This document shows positions 48,611 to 51,133 of a DNA stretch of 64,000 nt, one piece after another (positions within the stretch are counted from its first letter, which is position 1; each line of letters starts with the position of its first letter). The stretch lies in assembly GCA_964036155.1 (NCBI GenBank), contig OZ038422.1, positions 78,825,201 through 78,889,200 of the forward strand. The letters are read 5' to 3'. Origin of the DNA: Diploscapter coronatus. Its lineage: Eukaryota; Nematoda; Chromadorea; Rhabditida; Rhabditidae. Both the position numbers and the translations under genes were made by a program. The notes beneath the pieces were generated by a model. That model searched no databases and was not told the DNA's origin. It was given only the letters and a program-made list of their open reading frames with translations.

Positions 48611-51133
48611 ATGGATAAATTGCACAAAGGATGGTTCACAGAATTCTCTCCTGACGACCTTCAGAAAATGGAGCAGGGAGGTAAAGATTGCAATTTGGAA
48701 AAATCTGGGAAAAATGCTAAATTCAGGATCAACGGATGACAAACAGCTTCATTCTGATGGCGAAAATATGGGAGGTGCTTGGCCAGGACAGGCATTTTCT
48801 CTGCAGGTCAACGAAGTCCTCTTCCAGGGGAAAAGCAAGTACCAAGATGTGCTTGTTTTTAAAAGGTACGATTTTTGAAGTTTGTTTTTTTTATTAATTT
48901 GCTACGAATACGATCAAGAAGAGTTTCAATTTATTTTCACATTTTTTCAGATTATTTTCAATTTTGAAAACTTTCTTGCATAACACAGCTGTATTAATAT
49001 GCGAGCGAGAAAATTATCCTTTTGCATTTCCTGAAACATGGTTTTGAAAATGCGAAGATTTTCATAATGTTCAGTGCGTCATACGGCAACGTGCTGGTGC
49101 TGGACGGGATCATCCAAGCGACTGAGCGCGACGAGTTCTCCTACCAGGAAATGCTCGCCCACTTGCCCATGTTCGCTCACCCCAACCCTAAAAGGGTAAT
49201 TACTAACTTTGAGTAATTTATAAGCGTCTATACTGCAAATATGCATCGAATTTAATAACTTCCTATGGTTACATGTTGGAACACTTGGGTTTCGATCAAA
49301 TATGCATTTTCTTGGTTTCAAGTGTAACTATGTAAAATATCTGGGTGCAAAAATGATCAAACTAGATAATTATTTCTCCCCTAAACGAATTACTCCAATT
49401 AAGGTCCTAATTATCGGAGGCGGGGACGGTGGAATTCTACGCGAAGTGCTCAAACACCCTGAGGTCGAGCAGGTCACCATGTGCGAAATCGACGAAATGG
49501 TCGTCGAAGTTTCCAAAAAGTGAGTCATTTCCCCGAAATTAAAAGTTGAGATTTCTTCTGCAAATAATGCCATTTCCAGATATCTGCCCGGAATGTCGTC
49601 CGCTTTCGGCCATGCAAAATTGAATCTTTACATCGGCGATGGGTTCGAGTTCCTGAAGAATCACAAGGCAAGAAATATCGGCAGTTTTCGAATATGAATT
49701 TACAATGGCATCACACTTTAATCATTAAATATCAAAACGGTTTACAACAACGACAACATTGATGATAGCATCTGTTTCTAAAGTTGAAAAATTTCGGAAA
49801 ATTGACACCCTTTCAAAGATGATCATTTTCAGAACGAATTCGACGTGATCATCACGGATTCCTCAGATCCAGTCGGGCCCGCAGAGTCCCTTTTCGGTGC
49901 GAGTTACTACGAGTTGCTGAGGGACGCGCTCAGAGAGGGAGGCATTCTGTCTTCGCAAGGTTAATATTTTGGTTTTAGATATGCGCCTATTGCTAGCCCT
50001 TCAGGGATTTTTTCTTGAAATTATTTTCTCTCAGCTCAAATTCTAAAATTAACGGGAGATTTCGACTCAGTTTACCCATTATTTGAAACTTATTTATCGT
50101 TTTTAGTTAGGTTAGGTCTAATTGAGCTGCGCATCAACTTCCTGTAAATCTTGAAAGATTTATATTTTGAAGAAGCACATTCAAAGTTTCTCATCTCAAA
50201 ATTATTAGGCGAATGCCCCTGGCTAGATCTGGCTCTGATTGGGCGAGTGATCAGCCAGGCCTCTGGCCTATTCCCTGTAGTCCGATACGCTTGCGGCTCA
50301 GTGCCGACCTACACTTCCGGTCTGATGGGCTATATATTGGCAGGCAAAAATAAGGTTCAAAAGTTTTTGTTGAATGGTTGGAATGAATTTCGAATGATAT
50401 TGCTTCTGTAACTCTATCCTTTCTTTTCGAAATTGATGCGTGCGATTTTCGAGTGGTCCTTCCCAAATTTCAAGTCCACTACCACTTTATTTCAAATCAG
50501 CATACTGTAGCTGGTAAGGGTTGATATGTCTTGTGATAGTTCTAGAAGAATAGAATTCTGGAATAGAACTTCCCGAGTTTTATTTCCCGTGAAGTGTTGT
50601 GATTTTTGAGGCGAATCATCCTGGCTCCATCTCGAGTTGATAGCCCACATGGTGCAGTTCAACCGCAAGCTGTTCCGTACTGTTCGTTATGCTCAATCGG
50701 CAGTGTCGACCTATCCTTCCGGAACCATGGGATATTTGCTGTGTGCCAAGGCTGTTAGTGATTTTCGATTTTCTTTCCTTCCTGGAACTTTGCATTATTT
50801 CCCAAAATTTCTAAAGCGTTTTTAAAAAGATTTTCGAAAAACGTTATTGCTTCCAGAAGGTTATTAATCACGGTGCAAATTTGGCTTGGTTGAAGTGTGT
50901 TTCGTGAAACATTTATTACTTGTAATTTGTAACGACTTTAGTTCTGTATTCTTACTTTTCAATAAAAAATGAAAATTTTTTTAAATGTTCAGGACAGTGA
51001 TTTATCGAAGCCGTGTCGGATTCTGTCGGACGAGCAATTAGACGCGTGGAATCTCCGCTTCTACAATCCACAGGTCCACGAGGCCGCATTCGCTCTGCCG
51101 CAGTTCGTTAGAAAAGCGTTGCAGGAAAAATAG
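48611..51133 (+). CDS. spds-1: Spermidine synthase, 314-315 aa, with alternative exon 7
   Basis: Exons: 48611-48680, 48727-48865, 49075-49195, 49404-49519, 49580-49667, 49833-49959, then either 50209-50354 (7A) or 50611-50753 (7B), then 50993-51133 (stop). It transfers aminopropyl from decarboxylated S-adenosylmethionine to putrescine in the cytosol. Family marks: [13 protein letters not shown] at the N-terminus, [10 protein letters not shown], the cofactor loop LIIGGGDGG (112-120), CEIDE, catalytic Asp in ITDSSDP (Asp187, Asp190), SSQGE, and the final [21 protein letters not shown]. Length is close to human SRM (302). Exon 4 uses an AAG acceptor (49403), exon 7B a GAG acceptor (50610), and the intron after 49667 starts with GC. 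Either exon 7 keeps the frame; using both or neither destroys it. Confidence 0.96.
50209..50354 (+). other. spds-1: spds-1 alternative exon 7A
   Basis: 146 nt, entering at phase 1 and leaving at phase 0. It encodes [14 protein letters not shown] through [19 protein letters not shown]. It aligns over its full length with exon 7B and with the same segment of human SRM (GECQWLHLDLI ... TIPTYPSGQIGF). It keeps LFPVVRY as in human, but has Thr for Pro in TYPSG. Confidence 0.85.
50611..50753 (+). other. spds-1: spds-1 alternative exon 7B
   Basis: 143 nt with the same entry and exit phases as 7A. It encodes [20 protein letters not shown] through [19 protein letters not shown]. It keeps WLHLELI and TYPSG as in human SRM, but has Ser for the first Pro of PTYPSG and Ser for Cys in GECxW. 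Its acceptor is ATTTTTGAG, weaker than that of 7A. Confidence 0.85.
50857..50966 (+). other. spds-1: Possible alternative last exon of spds-1
   Basis: After a good TTCCAG acceptor (50854-50856), 16 in-phase codons ([16 protein letters not shown]) end in TGA at 50907. AATAAA follows at 50961. Exons 7A and 7B both end in phase 0, so either could splice here, giving a protein without the normal last 46 residues. Evidence is limited to splice, phase and poly(A) signals. Confidence 0.35.

Follow-up and report, generated by a model that had tools for sequence, protein, structure and literature searches.

The spermidine synthase gene spds-1 of Diploscapter coronatus, located in a window of 64,000 nucleotides (the whole stretch of DNA that was analysed), contains two neighbouring and similar exons, here termed 7A and 7B, between exons 6 and 8. 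The question arises whether both exons are in use, one at a time, and what their exchange would mean for the enzyme. We consider it probable, with good confidence, that they form an old mutually exclusive pair, which would swap a strip of the polyamine pocket and thereby give rise to two active aminopropyltransferases. The exon architecture is secure from the sequence; that both isoforms are expressed and differ in function is what we infer from it. The gene model, all on the forward strand, is as follows (positions of the window).

48611..48680, forward strand: exon 1, with the ATG at 48611 and a GT donor; its translation can be aligned with C. elegans SPDS-1 starting at residue 1.
48727..48865, forward strand: exon 2, AG/GT borders.
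49075..49195, forward strand: exon 3, AG/GT borders.
49404..49519, forward strand: exon 4, AG/GT borders.
49580..49667, forward strand: exon 5, followed by a GC instead of a GT donor (AAG/gcaag on both haplotypes).
49833..49959, forward strand: exon 6, AG/GT borders, ending with SSQ plus a G (phase 1).
50209..50354, forward strand: alternative exon 7A (GECPWLD...), acceptor ...ttattag and donor gttcaa, open on both haplotypes, placed among other 7A rows in the tree.
50355..50610, forward strand: intron between 7A and 7B, 256 nt, GT-AG, with a haplotype divergence not unusual for the window.
50611..50753, forward strand: alternative exon 7B (GESSWLHL...), acceptor ...tttttgag and donor gttagt, matching the exon in the C. 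elegans crystal structure 2b2c.
50993..51133, forward strand: exon 8, AG acceptor, with the stop codon TAG.

The genome comprises 169.7 Mb in three contigs, C1 (87.7 Mb), C2 (82.0 Mb) and a remainder of 13.4 kb, which appear to be a pair of homologous chromosomes plus a mitochondrial genome. The window lies on C1, and an allelic copy of spds-1 (L006), 93% identical over a whole-gene alignment with gaps counted, is found on C2. In a Pfam search of the genome, in which the best candidates were scored, the spermidine synthase domain occurred at these two allelic places only. Two parts of the window, 1-10841 and 41890-45050, had no collinear match in C2:73748001-73818000, whereas the rest aligned at about 93%; these parts represent either haplotype differences or, for 1-10841, the limit of the compared C2 stretch.

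Exons 7A and 7B are 146 and 143 nt long, respectively, both 3n+2, and each is entered in phase 1, after the G that closes exon 6 at 49959, and left in phase 0. Either exon alone yields an intact protein (315 amino acids with 7A, 314 with 7B), inclusion of both leads to a stop at codon 279, which is the tenth codon of 7B, and skipping of both leads to a stop at codon 223 (GGA CAG TGA). The second haplotype gave the same frame outcome for single, double and no inclusion. The two peptides reached a BLOSUM62 local score of 108, compared to a maximum of 39 among 2000 shuffles, and share 48% of their amino acids; their divergence is large, with a dS of about 1.2, which is near saturation, and a dN of 0.55. 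The sequence-only reading had placed the two exons at exactly these coordinates and had deduced from their phases that only one at a time would give an enzyme. Coordinates, phases and both premature stops could be validated, the latter on both haplotypes, and the similarity of the exons lies far above that of shuffled sequences, so that frame logic and homology both support the view of mutually exclusive exons.

Two further features of the locus are recorded here. Intron 5 (49668-49832), which begins with GC on both haplotypes, is the place at which the deposited D. pachys annotation splits the gene: one piece (P0075, 99% identical over 57% of the query) runs into the intron at its end, and the other (P0121, 100% identical over the 51 residues searched) represents the 3' part. 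A gene at 46820-48035, directly upstream of spds-1 and on the same strand, encodes two CDGSH iron-sulphur motifs (judged by eye) and ends about 570 nt before TTTTTTCAG, a sequence located just ahead of the spds-1 ATG. It is possible that TTTTTTCAG is a trans-splice acceptor and that the CDGSH gene and spds-1 form an operon.

A search of the spds-1 genes of related nematodes for the duplicate exon had been proposed. A protein search with the 7A isoform returned 7993 proteins, the best 120 of which were listed, and two more searches with the exon segment alone listed 17 and 9 matches; the resulting 125 listed proteins were scanned for patterns, and 73 of the sequences were inspected in full. The pair is in fact not restricted to this worm, since it was found in database proteins of Caenorhabditis, including C. 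elegans, and of strongyles, Mesorhabditis, Panagrellus, Strongyloides, Aphelenchus, Parascaris and Dracunculus. Judged from these proteins, the mutually exclusive exon pair in spds-1 is old. Three species, Panagrellus redivivus, Parascaris univalens and Mesorhabditis spiculigera (its models being labelled partial), have separate deposited models for 7A and 7B, which at most suggest transcripts with either exon alone; for Mesorhabditis belari there is a 7B model plus an incomplete one for 7A.

Some nematodes show one exon only, according to gene models that may each hide an unannotated second exon. Five tylenchid models (Heterodera, Globodera, Bursaphelenchus, Ditylenchus and Aphelenchoides besseyi) have a 7B-type exon only, from which it follows that 7A may be dispensable. 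Conversely, four filarial models and one further model (P0073, P0076, P0080, P0100 and P0065) have a 7A-type exon without 7B, and the Romanomermis and Plectus models have a single exon, which is of 7B or ancestral type. Exon losses in both directions, of 7A in tylenchids and of 7B in filarial worms, are thus possible according to these models.

For residue counts and for the tree, 88 segment rows were picked by hand from 75 of the 125 listed proteins plus the window, leaving out near-duplicates, fragments and most vertebrates; the second Brassica copy, the second haplotype and the second Aphelenchus row were dropped beforehand, so that 85 rows remain. The 7A class was defined by the pattern GECPW[LI][DE], which fixes Pro4 and Asp7 by construction, and the 37 rows counted as 7B include single-exon species (Plectus, Romanomermis and tylenchids). 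Free of this circularity are the first position of 7A in tandem models and the identity of residue 36.

The exons had been assigned to the segment from SSQGE to TYPSG that lines the polyamine pocket. The location holds, although SSQ itself is encoded in exon 6, and the TYPSG of 7B is TYTSG in 7A. The exon alone aligns to the Plasmodium falciparum enzyme (2pss_A, 321 residues), residues 3-47 of the query matching 232-276 at equal lengths. Exon positions 2, 7 and 35 thereby correspond to residues 231, 236 and 264, i.e. Glu231, His236 and Tyr264, with which the spacing agrees, assuming that the chain position equals the published numbering. In PMC4342090, Glu231 and Tyr264 are named as active-site residues of the P. 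falciparum enzyme, and Glu231 and His236 are described to shift in order to hold the aminopropyl chain of spermine. For Kluyveromyces lactis, the conserved Tyr235 is said to help deprotonate the substrate (PMC10146546).

At position 7, His is present in 37/37 non-7A nematode rows and Asp, by construction, in 29/29 non-filarial 7A rows. Asp alone is compatible with the family, since one fungal and one coral outgroup row carry Asp, in their case together with Pro after the Tyr. Tyr at position 35 is present in all 29 non-filarial 7A rows and in all 37 other nematode rows, and Glu at position 2, which is part of the pattern by which rows were picked, likewise occurs in both classes. Directly after the catalytic Tyr, 28 of the 29 non-filarial 7A rows have Thr (the remaining one Ala), compared to Pro in 37/37 other nematode rows and 14/14 outgroup rows. 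Pro is the usual residue of the family here but perhaps no strict hallmark; the E. coli enzyme also differs at this residue. Pro is likewise found in all five 7A-type rows without a 7B model (four filarial and one further), which suggests that Thr may be tolerated only as long as 7B is present.

These substitutions can be read in two ways. We regard it as most likely that 7A alters acceptor preference or regulation, and two substrate preferences would fit the pocket changes. The main rival is that 7A encodes a subunit with little or no activity by which the enzyme is tuned, in that mixed oligomers with 7B subunits would cut spermidine output or splicing to 7A would divert the message. Thr in 7A, where Pro stands elsewhere and also in the lone filarial exons, looks as if full activity needed Pro, and the protein contains the tetramerisation domain PF17284. 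On the other hand, 7A retains the catalytic Tyr in every non-filarial row, and the Glu and the Trp as well, though both of these belong to the class-defining pattern. Furthermore, the family score is undiminished: the two isoforms reached 350.9 and 348.5 bits for the spermidine synthase equivalog TIGR00417 (cutoff 249.55) and 239.3 and 238 bits for PF01564 (cutoff 22.9). In the AlphaFold model of the 7A isoform of Mesorhabditis, the order of strands and helices within the strip is predicted to be the same as in the 7B model, and its best match was the spermidine synthase of C. elegans, with a TM of 0.83 by query length, so the predicted fold appears normal. These predicted structures are of Mesorhabditis proteins instead of the window's own, and the model confidence around the swapped strip is lower in 7A (70 and 72 versus 84 and 80), which may reflect the alignment. 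Taken together, we think that a damped 7A subunit has about one chance in four of being the correct explanation.

How the spliceosome would pick one exon, 7A or 7B, was approached from the sequence of the pair's region. Steric hindrance is unlikely because the intron between the exons measures 256 nt while the same gene has an intron of 46 nt, and the GT-AG borders at both alternative exons count against a U2/U12 incompatibility. A scan for splicing motifs, conducted without statistics, revealed no TGCATG and a few short motifs, none of them convincing. With regard to RNA pairing, a 12-nt inverted repeat (50130-50141 with 50429-50440), which would loop out 7A, was found, and about one such repeat is expected by chance in this stretch according to a hand estimate. 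A device of this kind would aid exclusivity but is not indispensable for it. The intron between 7A and 7B differs by 3.5% between the haplotypes, compared to 4.3 to 11.7% for the other spds-1 introns; conservation of this intron as a sign of splicing control was dismissed, since 29% of 3071 windows of 256 nt are equally low or lower. We propose that exclusivity would arise from splicing regulators together with decay of the wrong products. The 7B form would then serve as the housekeeping putrescine aminopropyltransferase, and the 7A form would be an active enzyme whose acceptor preference, kinetics or inhibition by products is shifted and which may be used under stress.

The same frame logic could serve another purpose. 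If double inclusion or skipping destroyed the message as part of a polyamine feedback, the exons would form an unproductive splicing switch and the two proteins would be equivalent. Both faulty combinations stop early, and polyamine genes are known for post-transcriptional feedback. In addition, three Steinernema models resemble double inclusion: they stop just after 7A, their tails can encode the [SC]xWLH motif of 7B one frame off, and this offset equals that of the D. pachys double-inclusion product. Among 20000 random 10-mers, 177 can encode [SC]xWLH. The Steinernema tails thus appear as predicted for double inclusion. However, a single poison exon would suffice for such a switch, without two coding exons that have distinct pocket residues in many nematodes, and we rate the switch as rather improbable, somewhat below the damped subunit.

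A further explanation is that 7A is a decaying duplicate that is skipped in Diploscapter, and the comparison of the haplotypes provides points on both sides. Between them, 7A shows 5 nonsynonymous and 3 synonymous changes, compared to 4 and 23 in the remaining coding sequence (Fisher p 0.015), i.e. 4 nonsynonymous and 17 synonymous in exons 1-6 and 0 and 3 in each of 7B and exon 8. Judged by eye, the acceptor and the donor of 7A also deviate from the C. elegans consensus; the acceptor of 7B (tttttgag) looks weak, too. Nevertheless, neither haplotype has a stop, a frame shift or a lost splice dinucleotide in 7A, and its pocket motifs are intact. The four nonsynonymous changes that could be scored are located at columns which vary between species (mean entropy 2.68 versus 1.21, p 0.003), and the fifth falls beyond the aligned segment. 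The sequence-only reading had named a raised nonsynonymous rate or stops in one copy across relatives as marks of a dying duplicate; the former applies in part, to 7A between the haplotypes, whereas stops were absent from 7A on both haplotypes. Decay is argued against by the conservation of 7A between species, from Parascaris to Caenorhabditis, and we consider it very improbable. Among the 15 species with both exons (105 species pairs), the 7A segments are on average 60% identical and the 7B segments 64%, with the higher identity for 7B in 77 pairs, for 7A in 24 and equal values in 4.

Some deposited models place both segments in one protein, and 12 of the 125 listed proteins contain both motifs, with 7A first in all 12. 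These are three Caenorhabditis and two Haemonchus models (one with a shortened 7A) as well as models of Angiostrongylus, Heterorhabditis, Halicephalobus, Aphelenchus, Strongyloides, Dracunculus and D. pachys, and a C. elegans database protein of 366 amino acids (P0002) includes the 7A segment. A stricter listing comprises 11 models. In 8 of them the natural terminus of 7A, placed by eye, is directly followed by Val, two others shorten 7A and one is ambiguous. In D. pachys, this Val is the donor GT read through as a codon, and therefore the predictors seem to have bent splice sites, keeping the frame which double inclusion would break. There, P0121 joins 7A to 7B in frame via a cryptic donor after 50376, adding 50355-50376; haplotype 2 has a 2-nt deletion that breaks the frame of this join, so the public model is probably an error. 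That the tandem models are right is hardly credible, because their junctions read through the donor or shorten 7A, differing by species, the junction of the D. pachys model does not hold on haplotype 2, and the C. elegans crystal chain, unlike P0002, which carries the 7A segment as well, consists of the 7B form only. This structure (PDB 2b2c; Dufe et al. 2005, as cited in PMC3853187) represents the same gene and the same fold and corresponds to the 7B isoform.

We thus return to the old mutually exclusive pair and to the question of its age. The tree, calculated from 46 columns and 85 rows with a bootstrap that was not settled and a chosen outgroup that did not hold together, places 34 nematode 7A-type rows on one side of a branch (support 100/94). 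The 7A rows span Spirurina, Tylenchina and Rhabditina, and the exon should therefore predate their split. The tree joins 7A to non-nematode rows and not to nematode 7B (support 87/87, unstarred), and together with the split outgroup and the unsettled bootstrap this makes the time of exon origin unsure: 7A could be older than the nematodes or merely less changed. The 7A exon alone scored 37.7 bits on the human protein versus 31.7 bits on C. elegans 7B, and six animal outgroups are on average 46% identical to either class. Scores and tree would favour 7A as the ancestral exon, while the outgroup identity favours neither. The spermidine synthase-like protein of the soft coral Dendronephthya (P0120) also carries GECPWLD, but combined with TYPCG; it groups with the outgroups in the tree, and its GECPWLD is therefore probably convergent.

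A bolder version of the preferred reading can be formulated, to which we assign a tentative status only, as we hold it for less likely than its negation by a clear measure. Splicing would then select the substrate: 7A would give the only aminopropyltransferase gene found in the genome a second acceptor, such as cadaverine, diaminopropane, agmatine or a longer polyamine, would have persisted since the common ancestor of Spirurina, Tylenchina and Rhabditina, if not longer, and would be switched by stress, and the loss of 7B in filarial worms would be offset by Pro in the 7A-type exon that is left. Spermine synthase (SMS) belongs to the same aminopropyltransferase superfamily and takes a longer acceptor. 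It has an N-terminal domain (PF17950) for which no match at E 1 was detected in this genome, though 14 control genomes gave none either. A role of 7A as the missing spermine synthase is weakened because C. elegans was reported to be without detectable spermine (PMC6780408).

With regard to known systems, the closest likeness outside the family is pyruvate kinase, in which two mutually exclusive exons (PKM1/PKM2) change the properties of a metabolic enzyme. The PKM1/PKM2 swap alters regulatory and assembly regions, whereas the spds-1 pair would alter the polyamine-binding pocket instead. The swap of an active-site strip in a core metabolic enzyme seems uncommon. Within C. elegans, the Kassiopeia resource predicts 389 mutually exclusive exons in 138 genes, and the pair described here resembles these sets, i.e. 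adjacent exons that are alike in length, phase and sequence and of which one is used at a time; the Kassiopeia text (PMC3923563) does not mention spermidine. In Litoditis marina, long reads revealed significant differential usage of spds-1 transcripts at pH 4.33 and 5.33, according to PMC13405938, which does not name the exons. Our literature search, for which most subscription papers were beyond reach, found no paper describing the spds-1 exon pair. As far as this search reaches, the claim that no isoform pair swapping this region has been described holds, and the pair is apparently undescribed so far.

Splicing within one gene thus probably makes two enzymes with a different pocket, both of which would have been kept in distantly related roundworms, as deduced from genome and protein sequences. 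Work on polyamines in C. elegans, which covers lifespan, fasting and desiccation, treats spds-1 as a single enzyme. The primers and the RNAi fragment given in PMC11392816 and PMC6780408 fall, judged by eye, in the shared exons 1-6. The 7A/7B pair makes it possible to compare two natural versions of one pocket strip inside one enzyme, and the lone 7A-type exons with Pro, as in filarial worms, represent a natural test of the residue after the Tyr. If it is true that an isoform with an altered pocket persists in this many nematodes, some of their polyamine biology would have escaped measurement.
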